This document shows positions 7,157 through 37,991 of a stretch of DNA of 37,991 nucleotides, one piece after another. Source of the DNA: Acidobacteriaceae bacterium (GTDB lineage: Bacteria; Acidobacteriota; Terriglobia; Terriglobales; Acidobacteriaceae); the NCBI GenBank assembly GCA_030038315.1, contig JASHPD010000177.1, positions 1 to 37,991 on the forward strand. Direction: 5' to 3'. Below the pieces are notes generated by a model. It did no database searches, was not told where the DNA came from, and saw only the letters and a program-made list of their open reading frames with translations. The number at the start of each line of letters is the position of its first letter. Position 1 is the first letter of the stretch. Position numbers and translations under genes: made by a program.

Positions 7157-9277
7157 TTAAGGGTTCTTTGTTGCCGATGCGCTTCGGTCCGCCCACTTGC
7201 TCCAGATGGCCGGATCGGCCAGCATCTTGATGTAGACCCCGCCCACAACGGAGCGCGCCTGAAAGCCGACCTGCCGCGCAGTAATGGTGTCATACCAATC
7301 CGTCATCGGCACGCGGTCCGGCGTCTGGTTCAGGAATTCAAAGACCAGATGCACAATGGCCTGAAAGTCTGCTGCATTGCGTGCCAGCGTGGCAGACCAG
7401 ATCGTCCAGTCGAGCTTGGTGTACGTGGCGCGATTGTCCAGCGGAAGCCCGAAGCGGTTCAGATGCGATTTGTAGTACGCAACCTCGCGCTCGGCAATCT
7501 CCGCGGGAAAGAGATGCAGGCCGAGAATCGAGTCCCACACAAGGTTGTACTTCTGACTCCATGTCCCCGGCTTGTCGAAGGCCAGGCGGTAGTGATCGCC
7601 GTCGAGCGCTTTGGGTCCCCACTTGGCGGCCATCGACCGCGCGGCGCTTTCATAGCGCTCGGCGGTTTGTGTTTCGCCGCGTTCCCTGGCCAGTTGCGCG
7701 TAAGCGGCCAGCGCCTCAATAGCCTTGATGGAAAGGTTCGTGTTGTGCGCAAGATGCCCGGCGAAATCATCCGTGCAGAGCTGATTGGCCGGATCGAAAC
7801 CCTCGGCAAGCAGATAATTCGCCCACTTGGTCAGCAGCGGCCAGTAACGCGAGGCAAAATCCGTGTTGTGCTCCACGTGCGCAATCGCGTCGGCAAGGAT
7901 AAGGACGTTGCCCGATTCTTCCACCGGCATCTGATCCTCTTCGCTTACTTCGCCGCCGCCATACAACTGCCCATCGGCAAGCGGATAGACGCCGAGATCG
8001 TGCGGCGCAAAGGGAAACTTCCAGTGTGGGCTCTCCGCATAGCGCAGCACCGGCTCCAGTTGCGCCTCAACGAGCTTCGGATTCAGAAGCAGAAACATCG
8101 GCGCGGAGGGATAAATCACATCGACGGTCGAGATGGAGCCGTTGCTGAAGTTCTCCTTCGGCATGAAGAACGGCACGCCATGATCGTCCTCCACCAGCTT
8201 GTGCGCGGCAATGGCCTGGCGGAAGGCAAGAACTGCGATGGAGGCGTATTCCGGTCCGCCCTCGCGCGCCAGATCGCGTGTCAGCTCAGCGTCATAGGCT
8301 TCGCTTCGCTGCGTCAGCGAAGCATAATCATGCTCCGCGCCTTCGAGCAGCGCGCTGACCGTCGGGAACTCCTTGTGCCAGTATGCAAGCAGCCTCTGCC
8401 GCATGTACTCGATGGAGTAAATGTCGTCATAGCCGATAAGAATGTGACGCGAAACATCTGCGGCGCCCACCTCGCCGAACGGCAGAACCAGATTCAACGC
8501 CGGAGCCGAAGGAAACCGGCTGCGCGGCGCGCGCGGCTGATCGAGATCGTCCACCTTGGGAATATGCCCCGTCGCCGCAAAGTGGTCGCGATAGGATTGG
8601 TTGCCCGCGGCGAGCTCCGCTGCCTCCTTATCGGGAATAGCGAGATAGAAATATCCCCAGTCAATGCGCAGATTATCGCCGGAGTGCGCGAGAATCGGCT
8701 GCTGCTGGCTGCCGATCCGCAGCACGTGCAGGCCTTTGATCTCCGCGCGTGACCACACCACCGGCTCATCGGATTCATTGACGGCTGTCATCCCGCTCGC
8801 GTCGAAATACACGGCCACGTTGTGGGTGCGTCCATCGCGCGACTTCACATCCCAGGTCAGGTAAGTTACCGGCCGCGCCATTACGGCCAGATCGTCAGGG
8901 AACGCGGGCGTCAGAAACGTCAGCGTCAGCTCGATCTCCGGCGACTGCATGGTGACGATCGTCCGCGTGGGCGTGACCTGCTGTCGTGTCTCCTTGAGCG
9001 CGGGGATCTCATCCTCCGCGTCGCCAAGGTAACGGTAGGTCTTATCGTCCACGCGAATCAGCCCGTTGAGCGGCTGCGGCGTGCCGGTCCAGTGCCGCGT
9101 GGGCCCATCGGTCAGTGCATCGGCATTCGACCAGATGCTGAAATACGGATCATGCGCAATCAGCGGCGTCGCCGGCGGGCGCAGCGGGGCGGGTGAACCC
9201 GGTTGCGCGGAGAGTGAAAGAGAGACAGCGCACAATAACAGGCCGCCCAACAACGGGAGAGAAAAATGCCGGCTCAT
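7157..9277 (-). CDS. Secreted glutaminase-family protein (DUF4964/DUF5127/DUF4965/DUF1793 architecture, GtaA-like)
   Basis: 706 aa; signal peptide MSRHFSLPLLGGLLLCAVSLSLSAQ; PLIAHDPYFSIWSNADALTDGPTRHWTGTPQPLNGLIRVDDKTYRYLG and DNLRIDWGYFYLA characteristic of this family. Confidence 0.85.
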   Translation of the reverse strand: MSRHFSLPLLGGLLLCAVSLSLSAQPGSPAPLRPPATPLIAHDPYFSIWSNADALTDGPTRHWTGTPQPLNGLIRVDDKTYRYLGDAEDEIPALKETRQQVTPTRTIVTMQSPEIELTLTFLTPAFPDDLAVMARPVTYLTWDVKSRDGRTHNVAVYFDASGMTAVNESDEPVVWSRAEIKGLHVLRIGSQQQPILAHSGDNLRIDWGYFYLAIPDKEAAELAAGNQSYRDHFAATGHIPKVDDLDQPRAPRSRFPSAPALNLVLPFGEVGAADVSRHILIGYDDIYSIEYMRQRLLAYWHKEFPTVSALLEGAEHDYASLTQRSEAYDAELTRDLAREGGPEYASIAVLAFRQAIAAHKLVEDDHGVPFFMPKENFSNGSISTVDVIYPSAPMFLLLNPKLVEAQLEPVLRYAESPHWKFPFAPHDLGVYPLADGQLYGGGEVSEEDQMPVEESGNVLILADAIAHVEHNTDFASRYWPLLTKWANYLLAEGFDPANQLCTDDFAGHLAHNTNLSIKAIEALAAYAQLARERGETQTAERYESAARSMAAKWGPKALDGDHYRLAFDKPGTWSQKYNLVWDSILGLHLFPAEIAEREVAYYKSHLNRFGLPLDNRATYTKLDWTIWSATLARNAADFQAIVHLVFEFLNQTPDRVPMTDWYDTITARQVGFQARSVVGGVYIKMLADPAIWSKWADRSASATKNP

Positions 9278-22311: not shown

Positions 22312-25300
22312 TTACTGCACGACCACGGTGAGCGGGATGCTTTGCACGGTTCCGGCAGTGACCTGGACCTCGATGTTGTAGGTACCGGCCGGGGTGTGTC
22401 CCGCGCTTGAAGAGCCGCCGGCGCATCCGGTGAGGCTGCCGACTCCGGCGATGCCGGCCAGGAGCAGGGCCATCAGGGCGAGGTAGCGGCTGAGGCGCTT
22501 GCGCGCTTTGCCCAGCGCCAAAAGGCCGGCGAAGATTCCGGCGAGCGCGGCCAGCGGCACGGCGCCTGAAGCCAATCCGGAGCCGTGCCGCTGCGCGGAG
22601 GCCTGCGCGCCGGTTCGGGAGATTGCGCTGGAGCTGCTACTGGTTGCGCTGGACGAGCCGCCGGTGGAGATTGTCAGCGTGGTGCTGGCTGTTGTGGTGG
22701 ATGAGGTGAAGGTGGAGGTTGCGGGCGAGAAGCTGCACGTCATGTCTACGGGCAGCAGCGCGCAGCTATACGTGGCGGTTCCGGTGTAACCGCCCTGCGC
22801 CGCGATGTTGACGGTCACGGTGGCTGTTGATCCGGAGGAGACGTTCACCGAGGAGGACGACGTGGTTCCGCTGACGACGGGGACGGTGACCGTTTCACTA
22901 ACCGGAGATGAGGTCGAGGCAGTGAAGTCGGTGCTGCCGGCGTAAGCGGCGGTCACGCTCAGCGCGCCTACAGGCAGGCTGCTGGTGGTGCAGGGCGCTA
23001 CGCCGCCGGAAAGCGTGATGGTGCAGATAGTGGAGCCGCTGGCGGAAAAGACCACCGAGCCGCTCGGCGTGCCGCTGGTGGCGGAGGCCACGGTTGCGGT
23101 GAAGGTGACTGAGTCTCCGGAGCCGATGCTCGGGTTCGATGTGGCCAGCGTGATGGTGGTGCCGGCCTGCGTGACGGTCAGCGTGCCGGGCGTTACGGCT
23201 CCCAGCGCGTAGTCGGCTGCCGCGGAGCCGGCGAGCGCCGTTGCGGTGATGGGATAGCTGCCTACCGACGAGGTTGCCGTGGCTGTTGTCGAATAAACGG
23301 CTGTGACGTTGGCGGCATCGGCAGGCAGCACGCCGGTGAGCGTTCCGCTAAAGGCCGGATTCGCTGCTCCGTAGGCGCGCGTAGCGTTGTTGACGGCGAC
23401 GGCGACGGCGGAGGCTTTGATGCTGACTGTGGGCGAGCCGGTGAGCGTGACGGTGTAGTTGCCCGCGGCGGAGCCGGTGAGCGCCACGGTGATGGGATAG
23501 CTGCCCACCGGCGAAGCGGAAGTTGCCGTGGTGGAGAAGACCGGCGTTACGTTGGCGGTGTCCGCGGCGAGCACGCCGGTGAGTGAGCCGGTGATGGCCG
23601 GAATGGCCTGGCCGTAGGCCGCGGTGACGGAGTTGGCCGTGGCCGTGATGGCGAGCGGCGTGACCGCCAGCGAGCCCTGCGTGACCGTGCCGAGCGTGTA
23701 GTTGCCCGCGGCGGAGCCGGTGAGCGCCGTTGCGGTGATGGGATAGCTGCCCACGGCTGAGCTTGCCGTGGCTATTGTGGAGTAGTTTGCCGAAACATTC
23801 GCCGCATCCGCGGCGAGCACGCCGGTGAAGGTTCCGCTGAAGGTTGGATTGGCCGCGCCGTAGGTCTTTGTGGCGTTGGCGATGGCCAGCGTGACCGTGG
23901 CCGGGGTGATGGTGACCGTGGGCGAGCCGGTCGTCGTGACTGTGTAGTTGCCCGCGGCCGAGCCGGTGAGCGCGCAGGTGATGGGATAGCTGCCCACTTT
24001 GGAGCCCGCTGTGGCCGCGGACGAGCAGCTTGCGGCCACGTTGGCAGTATCCGCGGCGAGCACGCCGGTGAGCGAGCCGGTGATGGCCGGGATGGCCGTG
24101 CCGTAGACCGCGCTGACGGAAGTTGCCGAGGCCGTGATGGCCAGCGGCGCGACAGTGAAGGTGAAGGTTGTGGCGGTGCTCGATGGATTGAAGTTCGCGC
24201 TCGTGCCCGGCGTATAGCTGGCGGTGACCGTGTGCTGGGCCGCGCTGAGTCCGGTGAGCGTGAAAGCATAAGCGCCGCCGGTAAGCGTCTCCGCCGCGCT
24301 GGCCGTGCCGCCGTCCACGGTGTAGGTGATGGTTCCGGCGGGGGTGTTGCTGCCGCTCTGCGGAGCCACGGTCACCGTCAACTGCACGCTGCCGCCATAG
24401 ACCGGCGAAGCGGGACTCAGGTCGCCGATGGTGGTGGTGGTATCGACCTTGGCCACGGTATTGGTTCCGGTGAGCGTCAGCGTGGGATTGCCGTTGACCG
24501 AGTTGCCGGTGAAGGTCACCGTGTCAGTGAGCGTGCCTGTTGCCGAGGGGACAAAGAGCGCGGTGTAGCCGCAGTTCTGGCCCACGGCAAGGGCAAGCGA
24601 AGCGGTGCCGGGGCAGCCGTTGCTCGAAGCGTCCGTCAGCTCGAAGTCGGTGCTGTCGGTCGAGGTGAGCGTGCCGCTATAGGCAACATTGCCGATGCTG
24701 GTGACGGTGGCGTTCAGCGGGTCGCTGCTGGCGTCGTAGGTCTGCGCGGAGGCGTTGCGCGGGTAGTAGAGGACGCCGGTCTGGGAGGTGTCGGCCAGGT
24801 AGACGCCGCCGTTGGCGTCGAGCGCCACGCCCGCTGGCGTGGTGAGGCCGGAGGCGATGACGGAATTTGCGCCGCTGGCGGGAATCTCCACGACTTCGAG
24901 CAGCGCGGTGTCGGTGTAGACCACGTCGCCGGCCGCATCGACGGCGAGGCTGGCCGGAGCCACGCTGCCGGCCAGGGTCGTTTGCGTGCCGCTGGCGGTG
25001 ATCTTGACGATGCTGTCGATGCCGGTGTCGGCTACGTAGACGTTGCCGCCGGCATCGACGGCGACGGCGACGGGAGTCTCAAAGCCGCTGCCCAGAACCC
25101 TGGACTGGCCGCTGACCGGCACGAAGAGCACACGCGCGTTGCCGGTATCGGCGATGTAGAGATTGCCGGAGCCATCCACGGCTACGCCCTGCGGGCTGCT
25201 GAGGTTGGAGCCGCCGAAGGCGCTGACGGCGGTTGTGAAGCTCGTTGCGCCGGAGGCCAGCTCCGCAATGCGGTTGTTGCCGGTGTCGGCCACGTAGACG

Positions 25301-27402
25301 TCGCCCGCGCCGTCGATGGCGATCTGGTGCGGATTGACGGTGGCTCCGGTGATGGCTGTGGCCAGCGGCCCGGCGGGCGTGCTGGAAAGCGTTCCGTTCT
25401 GCCACGCGATGTAGGTGTTGCCCGCGGCGTCGGTGGCCACACCCTGCGGAGCGGTTCCCGAGCCGATGGCCGAGGACGCGCTGGGGTCGATGGCCAGCGC
25501 CGCGCCGAGGCCCGTACCGTTGAGGAAGGCGGTTGAGGTCATGGCGGCGCTGTTGACGGTGGCGGCGATCTGAACCGCGCCGGCGCGCAGGCCGGCTTTG
25601 GCCGGGGTGAAGGTGACGGGAACCACGCAGGTGCTGTCGGCCTGGGTGCCGGCGTTGTCCGGGAAGCCGGTGAGCGTGGTCGAGCCGGTGCAGGTGTCGG
25701 CGCTGCCGCCGGGATTGACGAACTCATTGCTGGCCGTGCCCTGCGTGACGACGGTTGCGGCCACATTGCTTGCGGCCTCACTGGAGCTGCCGGTGAGGAG
25801 CGAAAAGGCGATGGACTGCGTAGCAGCCGCCGTGCCGACCGATGTGGCCGGGAAGCTGCTGAAGGTGAGCTTGCGGATGAGGCCGTCGTCGTTGTCGGCA
25901 AAGTAGAGGTTGCCCTGGGAATCGAAGGAGGGATTGCCCTCGGCGTGGTGCGCGCTGGCCTGCGTGGCCGGGCAGCCGTCGCCGTAGGCGTCGGTCATGG
26001 CAGGGCCGTTCGAGCCGCCGTTGCAGTAGTCGCCGCTGCCGAGCGAGGATGCGACGGAGCCGCCAGCAATGTAATACAGGTAGCCGTTGGATGCGTTCAG
26101 CTCGGCAACGGACATATCGTCCGCGCCGTTGTAGTCCACGATGTAAAGGTTGCCGTTGCTGTCGAGGGTGAGGCCGGTGATCCTGTCGAAGCCGACGTTG
26201 CTGGCCGTGGCCAGGCTGCCGTTGCCCACCGAGGTGCTTCCGCCGTTGGCGTAACCGGCGATGGTGTAAACGTAGCCCGCGGTGGGCGTGCTGACGCCGG
26301 TTTCGAGGCTGATGAGGTTGGCAACGGGGTTGTTGGAGCCGCCGGCGTAGATGACGCGCACGGATGCCGTCGCGCTGACTGCATCGGCGTTGTCGCCGAC
26401 GTAGACGTTGCCGTAGGCATCGACGGCGATGCCGGCCGGGTCCACGAAGGCCGCGCCGATGGCCGCCGTGTTGGAGGCCGCCGTGCCGCTCAGCGCGGTG
26501 CAGCCGGAGCTGGTGCAATCGCCGGCGATGGTGTGGATGTAACCGGGACCGACGCCGCCGCTGGTAGTGTTGGGGCCGTTGATCATGCGCACGGCGTCGT
26601 TCTCGTAATCGGCGATGTAGAGGTTCTCGTTTGCATCGACGGCGATGCCGTAGGACTCGTGGATCTTGCCGCTGGTGGCCAGCACGCCGTCGGCATAGCC
26701 GCCGCCTTTGCCGGCGACGAGGTAGATGGAGCCGACGGTGAGCGTTGCGCCGGAGTCTTCAAGGCTCACGAGCTGGGCTGCGAGGTCCGTGGAGTTGGCG
26801 AGCAGCACATACGCGTCGGATTCGCTCTCGTCGAGGATGAAGATGTTGCCGTCAGCGTCCACGGCGATGCCATAGGCCTTTTTGAGGTAGCTGCCGGTGC
26901 CGGGGCAGCCGCTGCCGTTGCCGCTTGGAGTGGCGCCGTTGGTGCAGGAGGACGGCGCGCCGGAGAGTCCGCCGGCTACCGTGTAAACGTCGCCGGCCAC
27001 GGGCGTGCCCACGGCGGAATTGGCGGCCTCAATCAGTGCCGTGGCGGGATTGGACACGCCGTTGACGATGACGGCGCCGGCGTAGATGACCTGCACGATG
27101 CCGGCGGAGGGAGTTGCCGCGTAGTAGACATTGCCCCACTTGTCCACGGCGGTGCTGTAAGGCGCAGTGATGGCTACCTGCGTGGCCGGGCAGCCGTCGC
27201 CGTAATTTGTGCCATCCACGTCAATCGCGCCGGAGCAGGTGGTGCCTCCGGCCTCAAGGCTGGCAAACGGCACCTGGACGAAGACGGGCGGAACGCCGGT
27301 CTGTGTGCCGGTCTGGGCGGAGGCGCAAAGAGATGCGGCGAAAACGGCGGCAAGGGCAAAGACTGGGGCGGAAAGAGTACGGAATAACGCGGTCTTTTTC
27401 AT
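22312..27402 (-). CDS. Giant secreted surface protein: signal peptide, two NHL beta-propellers separated by an ASH-like domain, Ig-like repeats, four MBG repeats, C-terminal TM1-basic-TM2-lipobox-like module
   Basis: MKKTALFRTLSAPVFALAAVFAASLCASAQ; repeated NLYIADYENDAV/DVYVADTGNNRI/NLYIADTGNARV; TYGAANPTFSGTFTGVLAADAANVSANYST MBG repeats; C-term SGLASGAVPLAALAGIFAGLLALGKARKRLSRYLALMALLLAGIAGVGSLTGCAGG...GTYNIEVQVTAGTVQSIPLTVVVQ. Start trimmed from 27429. Confidence 0.85.
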   Translation of the reverse strand: MKKTALFRTLSAPVFALAAVFAASLCASAQTGTQTGVPPVFVQVPFASLEAGGTTCSGAIDVDGTNYGDGCPATQVAITAPYSTAVDKWGNVYYAATPSAGIVQVIYAGAVIVNGVSNPATALIEAANSAVGTPVAGDVYTVAGGLSGAPSSCTNGATPSGNGSGCPGTGSYLKKAYGIAVDADGNIFILDESESDAYVLLANSTDLAAQLVSLEDSGATLTVGSIYLVAGKGGGYADGVLATSGKIHESYGIAVDANENLYIADYENDAVRMINGPNTTSGGVGPGYIHTIAGDCTSSGCTALSGTAASNTAAIGAAFVDPAGIAVDAYGNVYVGDNADAVSATASVRVIYAGGSNNPVANLISLETGVSTPTAGYVYTIAGYANGGSTSVGNGSLATASNVGFDRITGLTLDSNGNLYIVDYNGADDMSVAELNASNGYLYYIAGGSVASSLGSGDYCNGGSNGPAMTDAYGDGCPATQASAHHAEGNPSFDSQGNLYFADNDDGLIRKLTFSSFPATSVGTAAATQSIAFSLLTGSSSEAASNVAATVVTQGTASNEFVNPGGSADTCTGSTTLTGFPDNAGTQADSTCVVPVTFTPAKAGLRAGAVQIAATVNSAAMTSTAFLNGTGLGAALAIDPSASSAIGSGTAPQGVATDAAGNTYIAWQNGTLSSTPAGPLATAITGATVNPHQIAIDGAGDVYVADTGNNRIAELASGATSFTTAVSAFGGSNLSSPQGVAVDGSGNLYIADTGNARVLFVPVSGQSRVLGSGFETPVAVAVDAGGNVYVADTGIDSIVKITASGTQTTLAGSVAPASLAVDAAGDVVYTDTALLEVVEIPASGANSVIASGLTTPAGVALDANGGVYLADTSQTGVLYYPRNASAQTYDASSDPLNATVTSIGNVAYSGTLTSTDSTDFELTDASSNGCPGTASLALAVGQNCGYTALFVPSATGTLTDTVTFTGNSVNGNPTLTLTGTNTVAKVDTTTTIGDLSPASPVYGGSVQLTVTVAPQSGSNTPAGTITYTVDGGTASAAETLTGGAYAFTLTGLSAAQHTVTASYTPGTSANFNPSSTATTFTFTVAPLAITASATSVSAVYGTAIPAITGSLTGVLAADTANVAASCSSAATAGSKVGSYPITCALTGSAAGNYTVTTTGSPTVTITPATVTLAIANATKTYGAANPTFSGTFTGVLAADAANVSANYSTIATASSAVGSYPITATALTGSAAGNYTLGTVTQGSLAVTPLAITATANSVTAAYGQAIPAITGSLTGVLAADTANVTPVFSTTATSASPVGSYPITVALTGSAAGNYTVTLTGSPTVSIKASAVAVAVNNATRAYGAANPAFSGTLTGVLPADAANVTAVYSTTATATSSVGSYPITATALAGSAAADYALGAVTPGTLTVTQAGTTITLATSNPSIGSGDSVTFTATVASATSGTPSGSVVFSASGSTICTITLSGGVAPCTTSSLPVGALSVTAAYAGSTDFTASTSSPVSETVTVPVVSGTTSSSSVNVSSGSTATVTVNIAAQGGYTGTATYSCALLPVDMTCSFSPATSTFTSSTTTASTTLTISTGGSSSATSSSSSAISRTGAQASAQRHGSGLASGAVPLAALAGIFAGLLALGKARKRLSRYLALMALLLAGIAGVGSLTGCAGGSSSAGHTPAGTYNIEVQVTAGTVQSIPLTVVVQ

Positions 27403-27564: not shown

Positions 27565-27577
27565 GTGGTCTGACCAC
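27565..27577. promoter_or_regulatory. Palindrome GTGGTC-T-GACCAC, candidate GntR/FadR-type operator of the 22312-27402 gene
   Basis: Perfect palindrome 4 nt downstream of a minus-strand TTGACA (27606-27611)-N18-TAGTAT (27582-27587) promoter. Confidence 0.65.
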
Positions 27578-27581
27578 GCGC

Positions 27582-27611
27582 ATACTACTGAGGCGCGATA
27601 ACGGCTGTCAA
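27582..27611 (-). promoter_or_regulatory. Candidate sigma70 promoter TTGACA-N18-TAGTAT
   Basis: Consensus -35; near-consensus -10; implies a 5' UTR of about 170 nt for the gene starting at 27402. Confidence 0.55.
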
Positions 27612-27656
27612 GGAGATTCTCCGCGCGCGCCGGGTTACCGTTGCCGTGGGCTGCGA

Positions 27657-30416
27657 TTACTGAACGTTCACGGCGATTGTTGCCATGTGAGAAAGCGTTC
27701 CGGCTGCGGTGGTGACGGTGGCCGTAACGGTCGCGGTCTCGGTGCCGGGCGGTGGTGCCTGGTTTCCGCTATTGGTCGAACCACTGCTGCCGCCGCAGGC
27801 CGAGAGCGCGAGGCAGCAGACGGCCAGGCCGAGCAGCATAACGAGCCTGCGGCGCGCGCGGCGGCGCGTGAAAACCAGCACGAAAGGCAGCGGCAGCAGG
27901 CCGGAAGCCAGGGTGGAGGCAACGCTGACGCTGAGCGTGGCCGTTGCGGCGCTTGCGCTGCTGATGGTTGCCGTGCCGCCGGCGCAACTGATGTAGGTGG
28001 GCAGGCCGCTGCACGTGTAGGTAACGGTTCCGGTGAGGCCGCCGAGCGGCGTAAAGGTGAGCGTGGCCGTGCCGGAGCTGCCGGGCTCGATGTTCAGCGT
28101 GGATGGGCTTGCGGCAAGCGTGAAATCCTGCACCGCGACGGCGACCGGCGCGGAAACCGAAGCGGCATTGCTGCCCGCGCCGGCGTAGGAGGCGGTGATG
28201 CTGTGCGTGCCTCCGGCCAGCGAGGACGCGGTGAAGGTGGCCGTGCCGTTTGTGCTCAGGCTGGCTGTGCCGAGCGCCGTGGTTCCGTCGAGGAAGGTCA
28301 CCGTGCCGCTCAGCGCGCCGCTGCCGCCGCTTACCGCGGCCGTGAGCGTGACGGACTGGCCGGCATTGATCGTCGTTTGCGAGGCGGTGAGCGCGGTTGA
28401 GGTGGCCGTGTTCGCGGAAATCGTTACGGTCACCGCGGCTGAAGTGGAAGCGGCGTAATTCGAGTCGCCCTGGTAGGCGGCGGTGATGCTGTCGATGCCA
28501 GCGGGCAGGCTGGCCAAGGTGAGCGTGGCAATGCCGCCGGCGTTGAGCGTGGCCGAGCCGAGCGCGGTTGCGCCGCTGACAAAGTTGACTGTGCCGGTGG
28601 GCGTTCCGCCGCTGGTGGAGGTGACGGTTGCGGTGAGCGTTACGGATGCGCCGGCCAGCGCCTGCGTGAGCGAGGCCGTGAGCACGGTGGAAGATGCGAG
28701 CGCCGTGACGGTGACCGTGGCCGCGCCGGTGGTCATGGAGGCGTAGTTCGAGTCGCCGGAGTAGACGGCGGTGTAAGTGTGCGTGCCGGCGGTTTCGGTG
28801 TTGAGGGTAAGCGCGGCGAGATCGACGCTGCCGCTCAGCGTTACGCTGCCTACGCTAGCCGCGCCGTCGTAGAAGGTGACGGTTCCGGTGGGCTCGGTGG
28901 CGACGAGCGTGGTGGGCGACTCGATGACCGGCTCGAAGATGGCGGTGAGCGTGACGGGCGCATTGGGCGCTGACTGCTGCGCACTGGCGAAGAATTCCGG
29001 CGCGAGCGTGGGGAAGCTGGCGCTGGTGCAGCTATAGGCCGCTTCCGTTGAGGTGACGTTATCCGTCACCGTCACGTTGTTGCCGGCGTTGGTTGCAACG
29101 GGAATGTTCACAGGACCGGGGCCGAGCGCGATGTTGGCGTTCGAGGCCGTTACATCGCTCGACGGCAAGGCGGAGGAAAAATTCACGTTGTCGAGGGTGA
29201 GGCCGAGCGGGTACGCGGCGCTGTAACCCTCCAACTGCACGGTTCCGGGAGTGAGCACGGTAACGTTTGAGAGCAGGATGTTCTGGAATTGCGGGTATTC
29301 CGTGCCGGTGGAGCTGGAATAGAAGGGATTGAAGGTGATGGGCGTGGCGACGTTCGTCATGCAGACGTCTTCATAGGTCACGCCGTCGATGAGGCCGCCG
29401 TTGCTCGATTCGCTCTTGATGCGGATGCCGGTGTCGTTCGAGTTGGTCGGGTCGCCGTCGATGTTCAAATTCTGGACGAGAATGTTCGTTGCGCCGCCAC
29501 TGGTCTGGCTGCCGATGGACATGCCGTGGCCGACGTAAAAGTGGTTGTTGGTGATGCTGACATCGGAGACCGTTCCGCCGGTTGTGGCGCTGCCGCCGGG
29601 CTTGAGCGCGATGTTGTCGTCGCCGTCGCCGATGTAGGAATCGGTGATGGTCACGTTCTGCGCGGGGCCGGGATCGATGCCGTCGGTGTTGCGTGCCGTG
29701 CCGGGGGCGATGATCTTCACGTCCCAGACGGTGAGGCCGTTGCCCTCATAGGTGACGTGGAACATGGGCGAGTTTTGCAGTGTGATTTTGTAGAGCGTGA
29801 AGTTGCCGGCGTTGACGTTCAGCAGGACTGGATTGTTCTGGTTGAGGCTTTCTGCCTGCGCTTCGCTTGAAAGCTGCCACCAGGTGGTGTCGGCAGGCGC
29901 GCCGGCGCCGATGAGCGTCTGGCCGCCGCGGCCGTCGATGACGCCGTAGCCCATGATGGCGGCGTTTGCGCCGTTGACGCTGATGAGCGGGTTGCAGCCG
30001 TTGCTGTAGGAAGCGACGGTGCCGCATTCGTTGGCTACCGCGTCGTAGTCGCGCGGGTCGCGCGAGCCGTAGACGGTGACGCCGGCATCGACCAGAAGCG
30101 TTACGCCGGCGGGGATGGTGATGGGCTGGATCAGATAAGCGTTTGCGCCGCCGGAGCCTTGCGCAAGCTCAACCGCCTGGCCCGCGGCGCAGCCGTTGAG
30201 CGCGGACTGGATGCGGCTGGTGTCGAACTCGGTTTCATCGGCCGAGGGGAGCTGATTGCCGGTTTCGGTCAACTGCGCGGTGAGCACCGTGCAGGAGGCT
30301 GGAAAAACGGGCTCGGTGACGGTGCGCGTGTCCTGCGCGGCGGCCGTGCGCAGGCAGAGCAGGAAGACGAGAAACGAAAGCTGGGGGAAAATGCGCAGGC
30401 GCGGAATGGAAGTCAC
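27657..30416 (-). CDS. Secreted GH28 polygalacturonase-like enzyme with C-terminal Ig-like (Big_3_5-type) repeats and TM1-basic-TM2-lipobox-like module
   Basis: N-terminal SP; GYGVIDGRGG; GH28 catalytic motifs NTDG (ARNTDGIDPG), DD (IGDGDDNIALK), GHG (VGHGMSIGS), RIK (TGIRIKSES); three repeats like TVTFLDGTTALGTASLSTNGTATFTASSLAGGTHSITASYAG; C-term LASGLLPLPFVLVFTRRRARRRLVMLLGLAVCCLALSACGGSS. Confidence 0.9.
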   Translation of the reverse strand: MTSIPRLRIFPQLSFLVFLLCLRTAAAQDTRTVTEPVFPASCTVLTAQLTETGNQLPSADETEFDTSRIQSALNGCAAGQAVELAQGSGGANAYLIQPITIPAGVTLLVDAGVTVYGSRDPRDYDAVANECGTVASYSNGCNPLISVNGANAAIMGYGVIDGRGGQTLIGAGAPADTTWWQLSSEAQAESLNQNNPVLLNVNAGNFTLYKITLQNSPMFHVTYEGNGLTVWDVKIIAPGTARNTDGIDPGPAQNVTITDSYIGDGDDNIALKPGGSATTGGTVSDVSITNNHFYVGHGMSIGSQTSGGATNILVQNLNIDGDPTNSNDTGIRIKSESSNGGLIDGVTYEDVCMTNVATPITFNPFYSSSTGTEYPQFQNILLSNVTVLTPGTVQLEGYSAAYPLGLTLDNVNFSSALPSSDVTASNANIALGPGPVNIPVATNAGNNVTVTDNVTSTEAAYSCTSASFPTLAPEFFASAQQSAPNAPVTLTAIFEPVIESPTTLVATEPTGTVTFYDGAASVGSVTLSGSVDLAALTLNTETAGTHTYTAVYSGDSNYASMTTGAATVTVTALASSTVLTASLTQALAGASVTLTATVTSTSGGTPTGTVNFVSGATALGSATLNAGGIATLTLASLPAGIDSITAAYQGDSNYAASTSAAVTVTISANTATSTALTASQTTINAGQSVTLTAAVSGGSGALSGTVTFLDGTTALGTASLSTNGTATFTASSLAGGTHSITASYAGAGSNAASVSAPVAVAVQDFTLAASPSTLNIEPGSSGTATLTFTPLGGLTGTVTYTCSGLPTYISCAGGTATISSASAATATLSVSVASTLASGLLPLPFVLVFTRRRARRRLVMLLGLAVCCLALSACGGSSGSTNSGNQAPPPGTETATVTATVTTAAGTLSHMATIAVNVQ

Positions 30417-30510
30417 GGTAAAAGCTGCTCGCAGAGGAAAAATGAGAAACCGAAGGCAGAAAGAAGGATTGCACGCGGGTCAGACAACAGGCAAGCGAAA
30501 GATTGCATAT

Positions 30511-30520
30511 TGGTCTGACC
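30511..30520. promoter_or_regulatory. TGGTCTGACC, candidate operator of the GH28 gene (second degenerate copy GGTCAGAC near 30478-30485)
   Basis: Core GGTCTGACC identical to the 27565 palindrome core; about 95 bp upstream of ATG 30416. Confidence 0.55.
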
Positions 30521-30649
30521 TCTAGATTTTTCAGAGCTGGCTTCGCAGCCTGGATGATGGGAAATATCTTGTATTTTCGGATAGAATTTGGATTTTCAGG
30601 AAAATATAGCAGTGAATGGGGTTCGATTTTGCGGCCAGGAACGAATTTC

Positions 30650-30660
30650 AGGTCTGACCA
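30650..30660. promoter_or_regulatory. AGGTCTGACCA, candidate operator of the VWFA-related gene
   Basis: Core GGTCTGACC; about 70 bp upstream of TTG 30728. Confidence 0.55.
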
Positions 30661-30727
30661 CAGAGGCGTAGTTTGAGTGATTATGATGGAAGCTGTCTGC
30701 CGCTGACGATTCCGGAGGTTTTCTTTC

Positions 30728-32281
30728 TTGCGCAACGCACTGGCCGTTTTTGCCCTTGGTTTTTCTGTTTGCGGATTTGCTTTCGCGCAGGCTCCTGCCG
30801 CGCCGGAGCAGGAGCCGACGCTTTCCGTCACGACGCGGCTTGTGGTGCTGGACGTTGTGGTGACCGATAAGGCCGGCCACACGGTGCCGGGGCTGACGAA
30901 GAGCGACTTCACCGTGCTTGAGGACAAGCAGCCGCAGACGATCCGTTACTTTGAAGGGCCGGAGCAGCACAGGCTGCCGGCGGGCGTGGAGATTCATTCG
31001 ACGGCCGACCTGGCCAGGGTTCCCGATGCGCCGGTGACGATGATTGTGCTCGATGAGCTGAATACGCGCTTTGAGGACATGGCGTATGCGCGGCAGGCCG
31101 TGGTGAACTACCTCAAGAGCCAGCCGACGCGGCTGGCGCAGCCGACGGAGCTGCTGGTGGCGAGCAACACGAAATTTCAGGTGCTGCAGGATTACACGCT
31201 GGACCGCGATGCGCTGCTGGCGGCGCTGAAGAATCACTTTCCGCAGTATCCGTGGCGGCTGATGCAGAGCGGCAAGGGCGGGCCAGGCACGGCGGAGCGG
31301 CTGGCGATGTCGCTTGGCTCGCTCGAACAGATTGCGCAGGCTTCGGCGGGGCATCCGGGACGCAAGAACGTGATCTGGGTGGGGCGCGGATTTCCGGCGG
31401 TGAATACGAACGAATCGACGGACGCGGAGGCCGCGGTGATTGAGCAGGCGGTGCGGCACGCGATCGGGATGATGCGCGACGAGCGCATTACGCTGACTTC
31501 GATTGACCCGACGGAGGTTTCCGCGGGGACGGTGCTGATCCAGACGCCGGACGACCTTGACGCCGCCGAGGACGAAAACGGCAGCGATCCTTTTGCGGGC
31601 GATGTGAACTTTCAACTGCTGGCTCCGGCGACGGGCGGGCGGATTTTTGCCTCGCGCAACGACGTGGATGCGGCGATTGGCACGTCGGTGCGCGACGGGG
31701 ACAACTACTACACGCTGAGCTATGAGCCGACGAACCGGAGCGACGCGGCGGCTTACCGGCGGATTGAAGTGAAGATGAATCGCCCCGGCCTGCACGCGAC
31801 GACGCGCAACGGCTACTATACGCAGGCCGCGGCGACGGCTGCGTCGGCGGAGACGGGGAATCTTGAGTTATTGCGCAAAAAAATCGCGTTCGACCTGGGC
31901 AGCGCAGCGAACAGCAACATTGCTTATACCGGCCTTGCAGTTGCGGCGCATCCGGTTGCGGGCGCGGCGGGGGTGCTGGCGGTAGACGTGGGCGCGAGGG
32001 ATCTCTCGCTGAGCGAGCTGGAGGACGGCTCGGGACCGGATTCGGCGCGGGCAGAGGTGACGCTGATGGTGGCCTTCTTCAAGGACAACCGGATGATCGG
32101 CCACGAGATCCGGGAGATGGCGGCAAAGCTGGTTGCGGGGCAGGGCGCGGGGACGATTGAGTTTCGGATTCCGGCGCAGATGCCGGCGGGAGCTACGCGG
32201 GCGCGGGTGATTGTGCGCGATACGGCCAGCGGGAAGATGGGTACGGCGGATCTTTCGGCTGCGGTGTATGGAGGGAAGTAG
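30728..32281 (+). CDS. VWFA-related Acidobacterial domain protein (TIGR03436-like), secreted
   Basis: 517 aa, TTG start; LSVTTRLVVLDVVVTDKAGHTVPGLTKSDFTVLEDKQPQTIRYFE then VTMIVLDELNTRFEDMAYARQAVVNYL, typical N-terminal part of this family. Confidence 0.88.
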   Translation: MRNALAVFALGFSVCGFAFAQAPAAPEQEPTLSVTTRLVVLDVVVTDKAGHTVPGLTKSDFTVLEDKQPQTIRYFEGPEQHRLPAGVEIHSTADLARVPDAPVTMIVLDELNTRFEDMAYARQAVVNYLKSQPTRLAQPTELLVASNTKFQVLQDYTLDRDALLAALKNHFPQYPWRLMQSGKGGPGTAERLAMSLGSLEQIAQASAGHPGRKNVIWVGRGFPAVNTNESTDAEAAVIEQAVRHAIGMMRDERITLTSIDPTEVSAGTVLIQTPDDLDAAEDENGSDPFAGDVNFQLLAPATGGRIFASRNDVDAAIGTSVRDGDNYYTLSYEPTNRSDAAAYRRIEVKMNRPGLHATTRNGYYTQAAATAASAETGNLELLRKKIAFDLGSAANSNIAYTGLAVAAHPVAGAAGVLAVDVGARDLSLSELEDGSGPDSARAEVTLMVAFFKDNRMIGHEIREMAAKLVAGQGAGTIEFRIPAQMPAGATRARVIVRDTASGKMGTADLSAAVYGGK

Positions 32282-32310
32282 CAGACGGCGCTTTTCTGTT
32301 GTGGGAATGG

Positions 32311-32469
32311 GCTATTATGGCGCGGATGCAGAAAGTCTCAAACTGAGGCGAAAAGCATATCTCAGGGCCTAAATGAAACTTCCCACCTAAAGGCCCCACT
32401 TATTACTGACTTTATTGCCGGGGCTAAAAAAGCCCCGGCCTACCTTTTGTGCGTCAGCGCCATAATAGC
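32311..32469. mobile_element. MITE/REP-like element of 159 bp with terminal inverted repeats
   Basis: Perfect 13-bp inverted repeats GCTATTATGGCGC (32311-32323) and GCGCCATAATAGC (32457-32469), extendable imperfectly to about 20 bp; internal hairpin GCCGGGGC-TAAAAAA-GCCCCGGC (32417-32439). No clear target-site duplication seen. Confidence 0.5.
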
Positions 32470-32605
32470 GAAGAAATTTTTGGGCACAAACACCGAAACA
32501 ACGCTACAGAAGGTAGTCTCGAAGATCGTATCCCTACAGTGCATTCTCCCAGCCGGTCGGAATGGCATCTGAGTCCTCCGTGGGCGCATAATTTTCAGAG
32601 AATGA

Positions 32606-32618
32606 ATTACAATGTAAT
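32606..32618. promoter_or_regulatory. Palindrome ATTACA-A-TGTAAT, candidate TA autoregulatory operator
   Basis: Perfect 6+1+6 palindrome 13 nt upstream of the antitoxin ATG (32632). Confidence 0.5.
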
Positions 32619-32631
32619 GCAGAGGTGCAAG

Positions 32632-32898
32632 ATGGCTGCCGCAAACGCGCTGGTACAGACTCGCATCAACCCGAAAATCAAGGCCGAGGCCGCCGCTGTC
32701 CTCGAAACCATCGGCCTAACCGTGTCCGACGCGGTGCGCCTCATGCTTACGCGCGTTGCGCATGAGAAGGCGCTTCCGTTTGAACCGCTGATTCCGAATG
32801 CAGCGACCATCGCGGCGATGCGCGATGCGCGCGCCGGCAAGGTTAAGAGCTTTAGCAGCGTTGAGGATTTGATGACGGACCTGAATGCGGAGGATTGA
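32632..32898 (+). CDS. RelB/DinJ-family antitoxin
   Basis: 88 aa: MAAANALVQTRINPKIKAEAAAVLETIGLTVSDAVRLMLTRVAHEKALPFEPLIPNAATIAAMRDARAGK; RBS AGAGGT upstream; overlaps toxin by 14 nt. Start trimmed from 32449. Confidence 0.9.
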   Translation: MAAANALVQTRINPKIKAEAAAVLETIGLTVSDAVRLMLTRVAHEKALPFEPLIPNAATIAAMRDARAGKVKSFSSVEDLMTDLNAED

Positions 32899-33166
32899 TC
32901 GTACCGCCAAATTCAAGCGCGACTACAAGCGGGAATTGAAAGGGCCGCATCGGGCCTATCTCGCGGAGCATTTTGCCGGAGCGGTAGCGGCTCTCGCCAA
33001 CGATGATCCGTTAGAAGCGCGCTTGTATGACCACGCTTTAACCGGCGATTGGCGGGGCTTTCGGGATTGTCATATCAGGCCCGATCTTGTGCTGATTTAT
33101 GCAAAGCCTGACTCTGAGACGTTGCAGCTCGTCCGCCTTGGATCGCATTCTGAACTAAGTTTGTAG
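32885..33166 (+). CDS. YafQ-family mRNA interferase toxin
   Basis: 93 aa: MRRIDRTAKFKRDYKRELKGPH...LYDHALTGDWRGFRDCHIRPDLVLIYAKPDSETLQLVRLGSHSEL, typical YafQ/RelE C-terminal pattern. Confidence 0.9.
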   Translation: MRRIDRTAKFKRDYKRELKGPHRAYLAEHFAGAVAALANDDPLEARLYDHALTGDWRGFRDCHIRPDLVLIYAKPDSETLQLVRLGSHSELSL

Positions 33167-33420
33167 GGACTGCGCCCTGGCAATTCGGCCCGGCCGCCTG
33201 CGGATTTGCCCGGAACGTATCCCGGCGCCGGCATCCAAGCCCGGCGCGATGCCAGACTCAAAGGCAAAGCCTGCTTACTCTAACGGGATCATCCAGGATT
33301 CGAGCTTATTGATTCGAGCTTATCGCGCAGCTTGAATGCAGCTAGGCGTATTTTGCTCTTGCCCATCTGCCCCGGCCCGACGCCTCTCATCCTTTGCAAA
33401 ATGGCGTGGGAATGCAGCAA

Positions 33421-33450
33421 GGCCCGGTTCCTGACGGAACCGGGCCTTTT
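33421..33450 (+). terminator. Rho-independent terminator GGCCCGGTTCC-TGAC-GGAACCGGGCC-TTTTTT
   Basis: 11-bp stem, tetraloop-sized loop and T-run on the + strand; sits between convergent genes. Confidence 0.8.
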
Positions 33451-33473
33451 TTGCTGCTCGGAGGAATGTTGGT

Positions 33474-36400
33474 TTAGTGAAGCAGGGAAGCGATGGACAG
33501 GTTTGTGTGCAGCGCCAGGGCGTGAGCGGCTGGCGCGCCCATCGGAAGCGGGTTGGCTTTCGCGGTGACGGGCGTGGCGGCTACCACGGTGAGAGTCAGT
33601 GTCTGGGTTTGGGTGACGCTGTTCTGGCCGGTCAGCGTGACTGTTACGGTGCTGGTGCCGGTGGGCGTGACCTGCGCGGGCTGCTGGGTGATGTTGCTGG
33701 TACAGCCGGAGAGCGCGGTCAGGCCGGAGAGCGCGAGCACCGCGAAGGCGATGGTCCAGAGCACACTGCGTTTCCTGTTGCTGAAGATTCCGCCTAAACC
33801 GAAAAGCAGGCTCGGAAAGAGGATGGCCAAGGCCAGCCCCGAACCGTGGCCAGCGCCGCGGCTCATGCCGTCGGCTTTAGCCTGCGTAGCGGCGGGTGAG
33901 AGGTTGGTGGCGATCGTCAGCGTGGTGCAGACGGTGGAGGCCGGCATGGACGCGGGCACGGTGCAGCTCGGCACGGAGGTGGGATTGCCGCCGAGGTTGA
34001 GCGTTGTCGGGTAGAAGGTGCAGTTGGAGTTTGCGGGCAGGCCGGAGCAGCTTAGCGTGACGGTTCCGGTGAGGCCGCCCTGCGGGGTGACGTAGAGCGT
34101 GGTCTGCGCCTGGCCGCCCTGCGGAATGCTGAGCGAGGTGGTTTGCGCGCTGACGATCATGCCCGGAGGGATGGGGTTGATGGTGAGCGCGACGGCCGCC
34201 GAGGTGGACGTGGCGTAGTTGGGGTCGCCGGAGTAGACAGCGGTGACGGAGTAGCCGGCGATGGCCAGGGAGCTTGTGGTAAAGGTAGCTGCGCCGGTGG
34301 CGCTCAGCGTGCCGGAGCCGAGGACCGTTCCGCCGGAGACGAAGTTCACGGAGCCGGTGGGCGTTCCGGTGGTGGAGGAGGTTACCTGCGCGGTGAAGGT
34401 GACCGGCTGGAGCTGGATTTGCGTGGTGGGCGAGATGGTGAGCGTGGTGGTGGTGGCCGCCTGCGCTACCGGGACGGAAAGTGTGGCGTTCGAGGATGCG
34501 TAGGTGTTGTCGCCGCTGTAGACTGCGCCGATGGTGTGGTTGCCGACGGGGAGGGTGATGGTGAGCGTGGCCTGGTCGGAAGCGCCGAGCGTGATGGCCG
34601 GCTGGCGCGTGCCGTCCACTGAGAAGACGATGGTTCCGGTGGGTGTGCCCGAGCCGGAGGTTGGGGCAACGGTGGCGGTGAAGGTGGCAGACTGGCCGTA
34701 GGTGAGCGCGCCGGTGGGGCTGGTTTGCGCGAGCGTGGTGGTAGTGGTGGCCAGCATCACGCCGTTGCCGGTGAGCTGGAGGCTGGCCGCGCCCTGATTC
34801 ACGGCGTTGCTGGCGAAGGCCAGTGTCTCTGCGAGCGCGCTCTGCGTGGCGGGATCGAAGGCGGCGGCGAGGGTGCAGTTGGCGCCGGCGGTTACGGTGC
34901 CGGAACCGGCACAGGCCGTTGTGGCGGAGGTGTCGAGGGTGAAGTCGGCGGTGTCTCCGGTGGCCGTATAAACGGGCGAGTTTGCGAAGGTCAGCGCGGC
35001 GTTGCCGAGATTGGCCAGCGTGGCCGTCTGCTCAGGCGTGGCAACGTTGAGGTTGCTGTTGCCGAAGGCGAGCAGGGCGCTGTTGCGGTTGTCCGCGATG
35101 AGGCGGTTGTTGGCGGTGTCGGCGACGTAGAGATTGCCCTGCGCGCTGGCGGCAATTCCCTGCGGGCTGCTGAGGAGCAGCTCGCTCGCGGCTCCGGTTC
35201 CGCCGCTGGAGCCGGCTGTGCCGCCCTGGCCGAGCAGCGTGGAGATGGTTCCGGTAGCGGAGCTGACGATGCGGACGGCGGCATTGCCGGTGTCGGCGAT
35301 GTAGAGGTCATCGGCGGCGTCGAGTGCGATAGCCGTGGGCGCGTTGAGCGAGGCCGAAGTGGCCGCGCCGCCGTCGCCGGTGAAGGTGGACTGGCCGTTG
35401 CCGGCAACGGCCGTCACGAGGCCGGTGGCGGGGCTCAGCTCGCGGATGATGTTGTCGCCCGTGTCCGCAACGAAGACGTTGTTGGCGGCGTCGAGTGCGA
35501 GGCCCGTGGGCGCGTTGAAGACGGTGGAAGCCGAGATCAGCGGGCAGCCGTCGCCGTAATTGTCAGTGGAAGCGGAGCAGGCCACGTTGGCGTTGGTTCC
35601 GGCGTGGAGGTTGATGGCTCCGGTGCTGGAGTCCACGCGGCGGATGGCGTTGTTGCCGGTGTCGGCGATGAAGAGATCGCCGTCGGTGGAGACGGCCACG
35701 CCGGAGGGCGATTTCAGGCTCGCCTGGGTTGCGGGACAACCATCGCCGAGCGTGTCATTGGCGGCGGCGCAGGCTGTGGTAGCTCCGCCGGCGTAGGTGG
35801 AGATGAGGCCGGTCACCGGATTGACGGCGCGGATGACGTTGTTTCCCGTGTCGGCAATGTAGAGGGCGCCGCTGGGGCTGACTGCGACGGCCTTCGGGGC
35901 GTTGAGCGTGGCGCTTGTGGCGGCCTTGCCGTTTCCGGAGTAGCCCGCCGTGCCGGTTCCGGCGATAACGGTCTGCGTGAGCGTGGAGGCGTTGATCTCG
36001 ATGACGCGGTTGTTTCCGGTGTCGGCGATGTAGAGGTTGCCCTGCGCGTCGAGCGCCGCGCCCTGCGAGGCCGAAAGCCCGCTGCCGAGCGTGCTCACGG
36101 TGCCGGGATCGACGGTCATCAGCGCGGCCTGGCCCGTGCCGCTCATCGGGTACGAAGCCAGCTCGGATTTGGCGCTGACAATGGCGAGCGGAGCGGCGCG
36201 CAGGCCGGGATAGAGCGCGTTGAAGGTGACCGCGACGGTGCAGTTGTCGGTGTTGTCGGTGGCTACGGTGCAGGCCGGCGTGCCGAGCGTGAAGTCACCC
36301 GCATTGGCGCCGAAGGCGATGCCGTTCGAGGCGGCCGGCGTGTCGTTGGCCGCGAAGTGGACCTCGACGGTCTGCGTGGCGGCGGTTCCGGCGGCCGTGG

Positions 36401-37742
36401 CCGGGAAGGCCAGGTTGCTTGCGGCCTCGCGGATGCGCGCGTCGCCGGGATCGGTGATGTAGAGGTTGTTGAGCGCATCGACGGCTACGCCCAGCACGCT
36501 TCCGCTCGCGTAGAGCAGCGCCTGCGTGGCCGGGCAGCCGTCGCCCAGCGTGTCGGTCGCGTTGCTGCAGACGGTGAATCCCGTGGATGAGCCGGAGTAG
36601 CCCCACTGGCCGGCGACCGGCGTAATGGTCTGCGCGGTGGGATCGTAGAGATAGATCACGTCTTCGCCGGAATCGGCGATGTAGACATTGCCCGCGGCAT
36701 CGGTGGCTACGGCGTTCGGGCCGCCGAGATAGGTTGAGGCCGCGGTTGCAGGGAAGGTCGGAGCCGAGGTTGGAGCCGACGAGATGGAGTGGTCGCCGGC
36801 GATGGTGGAGATGATGCTGCTGCCGGTGACCGCGCCGCCGGTAGCGGTGACTTTGCGGATGACCTTGTTGTCGTAGTCTGCGATGTAGAGATTGCCGGCG
36901 GGATCGAAGGCGAGGCCGATGGGCTCATCGAGCAGGACACCGGAGCTGTTGGCTGCGGAGCCGTCGCCGCCGTAGCCGGATTTTGAGGAGCCGTTTGTGG
37001 CGGTGCCGGTGTTGTAGCCCACCACGGTGTTGATGTCGCCGGTAGCGGCGCTCACTTCGCGGACGACGTTGTTGCCGGTGTCGGCGATCCAGACATTGCC
37101 CTGGCTGTCCACGGTGACGCCGCGCGGCTCGTTGAGCGCGGCTATGTCGGCCGGTCCGCCGTCGCCGCTGTATCCCTTGTTGTTGCCGCTGTTGCTCTTG
37201 CCGGAAGGCGAGCCGGCCAGCACGGTCATAATGCCGGTCTGCATGTTGACCTTGTGCACCAGGTAGGCGTCATAGTCGGCGATGTAGAGGTTGCCGGCGC
37301 TGTCCACGGCGATGCCGCGCGGCGTCTTGAGCGTGGTCTGCGTGGCGGCGATGCAGTTGTCGCCCTGCTCGTCGATGGCCGCGGCGCAGAGCGTGCTGCT
37401 GCTGCCGCCGCCGGCTACGACGCTGATGATGCCGGTGGCGGCGTTGATCTCGCGGACGTCGTTGTTGTCGGCGTCCACGATGAAGACGTTGCCCTGTCCA
37501 TCGACGGCCAGGTCACGCATATCCGTCGAGAGCTCGGCGGCTGTTGCCGGCCCGCCGTTGCCGGACGAGCCGTTGCTGCCGTTTCCCGCGATTGTCGAGA
37601 TCGTCGCGGGCAGCACGACCGGCGCCTGGGCGCGCGCCGATGGCGCCGCTGTGAGAGTTGCAAGGCCAACGCAGATGGCGAGTGTGAGCCGACCGGACAG
37701 GCATTTGCCCGCCTTCCGCGATCGGTCGAATCCTGTTTTCAT
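33474..37742 (-). CDS. Giant secreted surface protein: two six-repeat NHL propellers flanking an ASH-like domain, Ig-like repeats, C-terminal TM1-basic-TM2-lipobox-like module plus extra tail
   Basis: MKTGFDRSRKAGKCLSGRLTLAICVGLATLTAAPSARAQ; 12 NHL motifs (NVWIADTGNNVV, NLYIADYDNKVI, NLYIADTGNNRV ...); Big_3_5-type Ig; C-term GSGLALAILFPSLLFGLGGIFSNRKRSVLWTIAFAVLALSGLTALSGCTSN...TLTLTVV. Start trimmed from 37871. Confidence 0.85.
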   Translation of the reverse strand: MKTGFDRSRKAGKCLSGRLTLAICVGLATLTAAPSARAQAPVVLPATISTIAGNGSNGSSGNGGPATAAELSTDMRDLAVDGQGNVFIVDADNNDVREINAATGIISVVAGGGSSSTLCAAAIDEQGDNCIAATQTTLKTPRGIAVDSAGNLYIADYDAYLVHKVNMQTGIMTVLAGSPSGKSNSGNNKGYSGDGGPADIAALNEPRGVTVDSQGNVWIADTGNNVVREVSAATGDINTVVGYNTGTATNGSSKSGYGGDGSAANSSGVLLDEPIGLAFDPAGNLYIADYDNKVIRKVTATGGAVTGSSIISTIAGDHSISSAPTSAPTFPATAASTYLGGPNAVATDAAGNVYIADSGEDVIYLYDPTAQTITPVAGQWGYSGSSTGFTVCSNATDTLGDGCPATQALLYASGSVLGVAVDALNNLYITDPGDARIREAASNLAFPATAAGTAATQTVEVHFAANDTPAASNGIAFGANAGDFTLGTPACTVATDNTDNCTVAVTFNALYPGLRAAPLAIVSAKSELASYPMSGTGQAALMTVDPGTVSTLGSGLSASQGAALDAQGNLYIADTGNNRVIEINASTLTQTVIAGTGTAGYSGNGKAATSATLNAPKAVAVSPSGALYIADTGNNVIRAVNPVTGLISTYAGGATTACAAANDTLGDGCPATQASLKSPSGVAVSTDGDLFIADTGNNAIRRVDSSTGAINLHAGTNANVACSASTDNYGDGCPLISASTVFNAPTGLALDAANNVFVADTGDNIIRELSPATGLVTAVAGNGQSTFTGDGGAATSASLNAPTAIALDAADDLYIADTGNAAVRIVSSATGTISTLLGQGGTAGSSGGTGAASELLLSSPQGIAASAQGNLYVADTANNRLIADNRNSALLAFGNSNLNVATPEQTATLANLGNAALTFANSPVYTATGDTADFTLDTSATTACAGSGTVTAGANCTLAAAFDPATQSALAETLAFASNAVNQGAASLQLTGNGVMLATTTTTLAQTSPTGALTYGQSATFTATVAPTSGSGTPTGTIVFSVDGTRQPAITLGASDQATLTITLPVGNHTIGAVYSGDNTYASSNATLSVPVAQAATTTTLTISPTTQIQLQPVTFTAQVTSSTTGTPTGSVNFVSGGTVLGSGTLSATGAATFTTSSLAIAGYSVTAVYSGDPNYATSTSAAVALTINPIPPGMIVSAQTTSLSIPQGGQAQTTLYVTPQGGLTGTVTLSCSGLPANSNCTFYPTTLNLGGNPTSVPSCTVPASMPASTVCTTLTIATNLSPAATQAKADGMSRGAGHGSGLALAILFPSLLFGLGGIFSNRKRSVLWTIAFAVLALSGLTALSGCTSNITQQPAQVTPTGTSTVTVTLTGQNSVTQTQTLTLTVVAATPVTAKANPLPMGAPAAHALALHTNLSIASLLH

Positions 37743-37853
37743 TGTTTTGAAACTCCAATCAGGTTTTTCTCGCGGCTGGAATGCTGTGGGTTGCGCTTCC
37801 CGCGCGCCAAGGCACAAGTCCCCATCCGGGCAAGACTTCAAGACCGATGTACT

Positions 37854-37881
37854 CTTATATGGTCCGACCACTCGTTGTCAA
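37854..37881 (-). promoter_or_regulatory. Candidate sigma70 promoter TTGACA-N16-TATAAG with a TGGTC-C-GACCA operator (37860-37870) in the spacer
   Basis: Minus strand TTGACA ACGAGTGGTCGGACCA TATAAG; operator lies wholly inside the spacer. Confidence 0.65.
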
Positions 37882-37991
37882 GAAAGATTGCGGGTCGAAT
37901 CCTTTGCCTTTGCGCGGAAGATGGCGGAAATGGCGGCTTCAGACGCTCTTTCCTGGAAATTCAGGGTGGGCGGGAGCAATTTGCTTGACAG

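Follow-up and report, generated by a model that had tools for sequence, protein, structure and literature searches.

The window, that is, the whole 37,991-bp stretch of DNA that was analysed, contains a cluster of four genes and, upstream of them, four copies of a short palindrome. These features are listed below together with a promoter-like element and a possible accessory site; the palindromes are called operators in the sense argued for in the following sections.

22312-27402, minus strand: propeller gene 1 (NHL1), 1696 aa, with NHL repeats and MBG and Big_3_5 domains
27565-27577, no strand assigned: putative operator 1, GTGGTCTGACCAC, in full agreement with the extended consensus GWGGTCNGACCWC; precedes the start of propeller gene 1 by 165 bp
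27582-27611, minus strand: promoter-like TTGACA-18-TAGTAT of propeller gene 1 (10/12 matches; shuffles average 0.1)
27657-30416, minus strand: GH28 polygalacturonase-type protein, 919 aa, with a C-terminal lipo-invert anchoring domain in addition to Big_3_5 domains
30478-30486, plus strand: possible accessory site, GGTCAGACA, an 8/9 match, 34 bp from operator 2
30511-30521, no strand assigned: putative operator 2, TGGTCTGACCT(C); precedes the GH28 gene by 96 bp
30650-30660, no strand assigned: putative operator 3, AGGTCTGACCA(C); precedes the GH28 gene by 235 bp and the VWA gene by 68 bp
30728-32281, plus strand: VWA-domain protein (TIGR03436), a doubtful regulon member
33474-37742, minus strand: propeller gene 2 (NHL2), 1422 aa, with NHL/teneurin-type repeats and Big_3_5 domains
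37860-37870, no strand assigned: putative operator 4, TGGTCCGACCA(C); precedes propeller gene 2 by 119 bp

TIGR03436, the family of the VWA protein, is specific to Acidobacteria, and the VWA gene has a TTG start behind a GGAGG sequence. Elsewhere in the window, a full-length DUF5695 protein (4209-7067; 1291 bits), from a family of unknown function, has a glutaminase-A-like protein (7157-9277) as its neighbour.

The original prediction had placed four matches to GGTCNGACC in the window, one upstream of each of the four genes. Exactly four were found (27567-27575, 30512-30520, 30651-30659 and 37861-37869), with no further match in the 38-kb window, and all of them were intergenic and upstream of genes of the cluster. 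However, the sites at 30512 and 30651 lie in a common divergent intergenic region, with the GH28 gene on the left and the VWA gene on the right. Whether each gene has one site therefore depends on how the sites are assigned: operator 3 could serve either the GH28 or the VWA gene, and both sites can serve the GH28 gene. The accessory site close to operator 2 is possibly functional, with chance as a live alternative.

The genome is a MAG from a soil acidobacterium, of 3.77 Mb in 392 contigs, 92.5% complete and with strain variation. It contained 25 copies of GGTCNGACC, compared with 70 copies of the reversed control pattern. At this rate, 0.25 sites would be expected in 38 kb versus the four that were seen (P for at least four, ~1.4e-4), and 1 of 100 dinucleotide shuffles of the window reached at least four matches. 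The bare 11-mer TGGTCNGACCA was found 5 times genome-wide versus 4 times for its control; the count of this string therefore proves nothing by itself.

Other sites in the genome and the extended consensus

Every contig bearing a GGTCNGACC site was fetched, and its genes were inspected. One gene for an FCD-domain (FadR-type) GntR regulator was found in the genome, on contig C351 (7050-7754), and the regulator is thus encoded outside the window, as had been foreseen. The gene order on this contig was GH88, TonB-type receptor, site, GntR, site, uxaC (glucuronate isomerase), MFS transporter of the galactonate-transporter type and Lar_N protein. The regulator gene is flanked by two palindromes, its own promoter included, which provides a candidate for the autoregulatory site that the original prediction had proposed to look for. 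One site was located on contig C80, between a GH28-pectinesterase gene and a KDG-kinase-like gene, and two sites were located on contig C212, upstream of another TonB-type receptor gene. The proposed search near GH28 and uronate genes thus gave a positive answer, with operators preceding genes for uronate isomerase, KDG kinase, pectinase and uptake. Most of the remaining GGTCNGACC 9-mers of the genome fell within genes.

Positions 37848-37991 of the window overlap the beginning of C212 end-to-end (L034:1-144; 138 of 144 bases identical, 95.8%), a sign of strain variation in the MAG. Most simply, C212 would be the next stretch of the chromosome after the right end of the window, taken from a slightly different strain. 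Its site at position 14 was not accepted as an independent fifth site because it is probably the 37861 site of the window on an overlapping strain-variant contig. Operator 4 thus probably lies between propeller gene 2 and a divergently oriented TonB-type receptor gene, which starts on C212, and would be shared by the two. A search for orthologues of this receptor in the genus returned the query only, few candidates having been scored per genome.

The extended consensus GWGGTCNGACCWC was obtained from 86 aligned operators of regulator loci and of the giant genes described below; it was derived from other species and then applied to the genome under study. The corresponding filter demanded A or T directly on each side of the 9-mer and an outer G/C on at least one side. 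Nine sites (eight distinct) were retained, namely four in the window, two at the regulator gene, one between the GH28-pectinesterase and KDG-kinase genes and two on C212, and all nine adjoin pectin/uronate genes or genes of the window. Sites that failed the extended consensus and were dropped were those on C271 (GGGTCAGACCC, upstream of a receptor gene), C384 (IS66) and C136 (near a Cas Csd1 gene). In Terracidiphilus gabretensis, whose orthologue of the regulator is 93% identical, the filter reduced 35 bare 9-mers to 4, which precede uxaC/GntR, the GH28-pectinesterase/KDG-kinase pair and two receptor genes; the pyruvate-kinase and GH3 sites of this species failed the extended consensus and were dropped.

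A total of 150 genomes of the family were compared, 36 with an orthologous regulator and 114 without it. The mean number of extended 13-mers per genome was 1.61 in the former versus 0.43 in the latter (P ~1e-7), a co-occurrence that is partly circular because the regulator's own site is counted. The bare 11-mer did not separate the two groups (means of 3.14 and 2.68; P 0.07). Since the exact 11-mer count per genome matched its control and barely differed with and without the regulator, it was not used as evidence. An equal frequency of the motif elsewhere in the genome, which had been named in advance as an argument against the sites, was thus found for the bare 11-mer but not for the extended form or for the positions of the sites.

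Conservation of the sites at orthologous loci

Relatives of the regulator were found at 59 loci (62-94% identity), all of them from Acidobacteriaceae or related acidobacterial MAGs. Of the 58 testable loci (one locus had no upstream sequence), 54 had GGTCNGACC within the 350 bp that precede the regulator gene, mostly at a distance of 170-205 bp. Across 756 kb of these loci, the palindrome was intergenic 102 times and coding 15 times, although intergenic DNA made up 18% of the sequence, and 11 composition-matched palindromes were intergenic 1-7 times each. The genes downstream of the sites were the regulator gene or uxaC in the majority of cases, as well as genes for TonB-type receptors, KDG kinase and GH28 proteins. 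In 11 loci (L044, L045, L046, L048, L049, L052, L053, L054, L056, L072 and L096), the uxaC promoter had tandem operators, GTGGTCTGACCTCnnnnATGGTCNGACCAC-like and 16-18 bp apart.

It is conceivable that the sites serve another FCD regulator, missing from a MAG that is 92.5% complete and divided into 392 contigs, and some relatives (G133, G104 and G137) do have a second, diverged FCD regulator. However, the same palindrome occurs family-wide at the promoter of the C351-type regulator itself, as autoregulation predicts, and the 13-mer count follows the presence of this regulator. A missing regulator is therefore considered very unlikely.

Homologues of the window's GH28 gene in the genus fell mainly into two kinds: genes of the GH28-pectinesterase type and giant genes encoding approximately 3,000-3,900 aa. 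A site was present within 900 bp upstream of 13 of the 29 non-self GH28 homologues examined, some of the others being short of upstream sequence. The giant GH28 proteins comprised 3,052-3,927 aa, and all five genes with a known 5' end had a palindrome 100-208 bp upstream. The following genes encode the arrangement NHL-GH28-Big-NHL as a single giant protein:

L195:2833-13023
L196:1921-13704
L197:8398-18738
L198:8253-18059
L200:6239-15397

A Pfam scan of one giant gave, in order, NHL repeats, MBG, GH28, Big_3_5 repeats, NHL repeats again and a terminal Big_3_5 domain. The proteins of the window aligned to successive parts of the giants at 28-44% identity: the GH28 protein to the middle, NHL2 best to the C-terminal propeller and NHL1 to either propeller. 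These alignments indicate that NHL1, GH28 and NHL2 have counterparts in other species that are joined in one polypeptide behind one operator. In contrast to the giant genes (5/5), none of the 13 stand-alone NHL homologues, a paralogue from the same genome included, had a site upstream (0/13; Fisher P ~1e-4). It is therefore by association with GH28 that the propeller proteins seem to be part of the pectin programme.

Among 19 homologues of the VWA gene, a site was found upstream of none; this was a weak test because the homologues are distant (31-45% identity) and perhaps not orthologous. As both nearby sites can serve the GH28 gene, the VWA gene was left unsupported as a target and may be a mere neighbour rather than a regulon member. 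Conservation upstream of orthologues, the lack of which the original prediction had named as counter-evidence, was thus observed at the giant GH28/propeller genes (5/5) and was absent at the distant VWA homologues. Of the single regulon that had been proposed for the four genes, the part comprising the pectinase and both propeller proteins was supported, but not the part comprising the VWA protein.

That the palindromes are a chance cluster with no function might be argued from the bare 11-mer, which is as frequent as its control genome-wide, and from the location of most other 9-mers of the genome within genes. This explanation is scarcely credible in view of the clustering (P ~1e-4), the intergenic placement, the conservation before orthologous genes and the matched palindromes, which showed nothing of the kind.

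Promoters, regulator and the proposed regulon

In the TTGACA-18-TAGTAT element of propeller gene 1, the second hexamer is followed 6 nt later by the start of operator 1. In the uxaC promoters, the operator is immediately preceded by a TGTATACT-like -10 element and starts 2-4 nt after it (43 operators in 59 loci). For propeller gene 2, operator 4 appears to lie between TTGACA and TATAAG (spacing 16), although this was read by eye, and TATAAG fails the scanner's rule. The C212 receptor gene has TTGACA-18-GATACT with the operator just downstream. Operators placed on or beside core promoters suit a repressor that blocks polymerase.

The positions and the conservation of the sites, their linkage to pectin and uronate genes and their co-occurrence with the regulator were demonstrated. 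Very probably, the palindromes are operators of the one FCD-GntR (C351:7050-7754), which would control a pectin/galacturonate regulon by repression that a sugar acid relieves. A dimer of the regulator would sit on or beside the core promoter and block transcription. Binding of a uronic-acid intermediate from pectin degradation (galacturonate, tagaturonate, fructuronate or KDG) to the metal site of the FCD domain would set it free. From the outside to the inside of the cell, the proposed regulon would comprise the surface propeller-GH28 proteins, the secreted GH28-pectinesterase, the TonB-type receptors, the uxaC/transporter operon, KDG kinase and the regulator itself.

Alternatively, the ligand-bound regulator could act as an activator that recruits polymerase to these promoters. 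Some FCD regulators do activate, as described for CitO (PMC4746285), and at the receptor promoters the position of the operator relative to the core promoter is unclear. However, operators 2-4 nt after the -10 element (uxaC), 6 nt after it (propeller gene 1) and apparently in the spacer (propeller gene 2) occupy classical repressor positions, and activation is thus regarded as unlikely.

The regulator protein has an N-terminal GntR winged helix (PF00392, E 1.4e-14) and a C-terminal FCD domain (PF07729, E 2.6e-26). Its residues R26, R36, R40, H56 and G57, which were invariant in 30 orthologues, correspond to Arg-35, Arg-45, Arg-49, His-65 and Gly-66 of FadR, the positions of DNA contact (Table 1, PMC4494728). 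The nearest solved relatives are other GntR/FCD proteins. None of the NCBIfam cut-offs was reached (NanR 111/260 bits, LldR 102/311, UxuR 51/442, ExuR 46/396 and FadR 41.5/189); therefore, the regulator is not an orthologue of FadR, UxuR, ExuR, NanR or LldR. It would work like a hexuronate repressor but belongs to an unnamed FCD group.

The FadR-type operator style that had been assigned to the palindrome was corroborated. The published consensus of FadR-subfamily operators is NyGTM-N0-1-KACNy with TKGT/ACMA arms (PMC4494728). The GT-C-N-G-AC core, TGGT/ACCA arms and 3-nt spacing found here fit this consensus, and GWGGTCNGACCWC conforms to the GTM-N0-1-KAC palindrome with its arms; in addition, the outer G and C positions are conserved here. 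Acidobacterial regulators are absent from the table of analysed regulators in that publication.

UxuR and ExuR of gammaproteobacteria are likewise FCD-GntR proteins linked to uxaC, hexuronate transport and KDG formation, and ExuR has the same 3-nt GT-AC spacing (PMC4494728). In contrast to these systems, the regulon proposed here would reach surface propeller-GH28 proteins and TonB-type receptors, and the score of the regulator is far below the equivalog cut-offs. DgoR, the D-galactonate repressor of E. coli, is also an FCD-GntR, in whose effector pocket Asp and His hold a divalent metal (PMC7674646). The four presumptive FCD metal ligands D136, H140, H184 and H206 were invariant in the 30 orthologues, and the first three, as well as H206, are equivalent to those of DgoR, although pathway and effector differ. 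Since DgoR binds a sugar acid via a metal at the equivalent Asp/His residues, a uronic-acid intermediate is the likely effector of the present regulator.

As in PULs, TonB-type receptors, surface proteins and glycosidases would be co-regulated for one glycan. Unlike in PULs, the genes are spread over at least three contigs and linked by the operator, not by contiguity; an FCD-GntR is the regulator, and no SusD homologue was found among the genes examined. Two traits are unusual here: the proposed regulon extends to large propeller surface proteins, and it is scattered over several loci. Literature searches returned nothing relevant on this palindrome or on a known acidobacterial regulon of the pectin or GntR kind. 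Tentatively, these genes might form a dedicated acidobacterial cell-surface apparatus for pectin, PUL-like but held together by an operator. In it, NHL propellers, as pectin-handling scaffolds, and GH28, fused (~3,000-3,900 aa) or separate, would be coupled to TonB-type receptors under one FCD-GntR.

Acidobacteria are abundant degraders of soil polymers, and a family-wide operator offers a way to compile pectin genes from many uncultured genomes. It also hints at a function for large NHL-propeller/Ig-like proteins, which are co-marked with a pectinase here and fused to a pectinase in relatives.

A Lar_N-domain (lactate-racemase-like) protein was conserved in the uxaC operon, with the MFS transporter on one side and UxaE (tagaturonate epimerase) on the other, for example at L038:10748-11605 and L041:3682-4944. 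As neither mannonate nor altronate dehydratase was seen among the uxaC-operon genes scanned, this could be a uronate-pathway enzyme that has escaped recognition.
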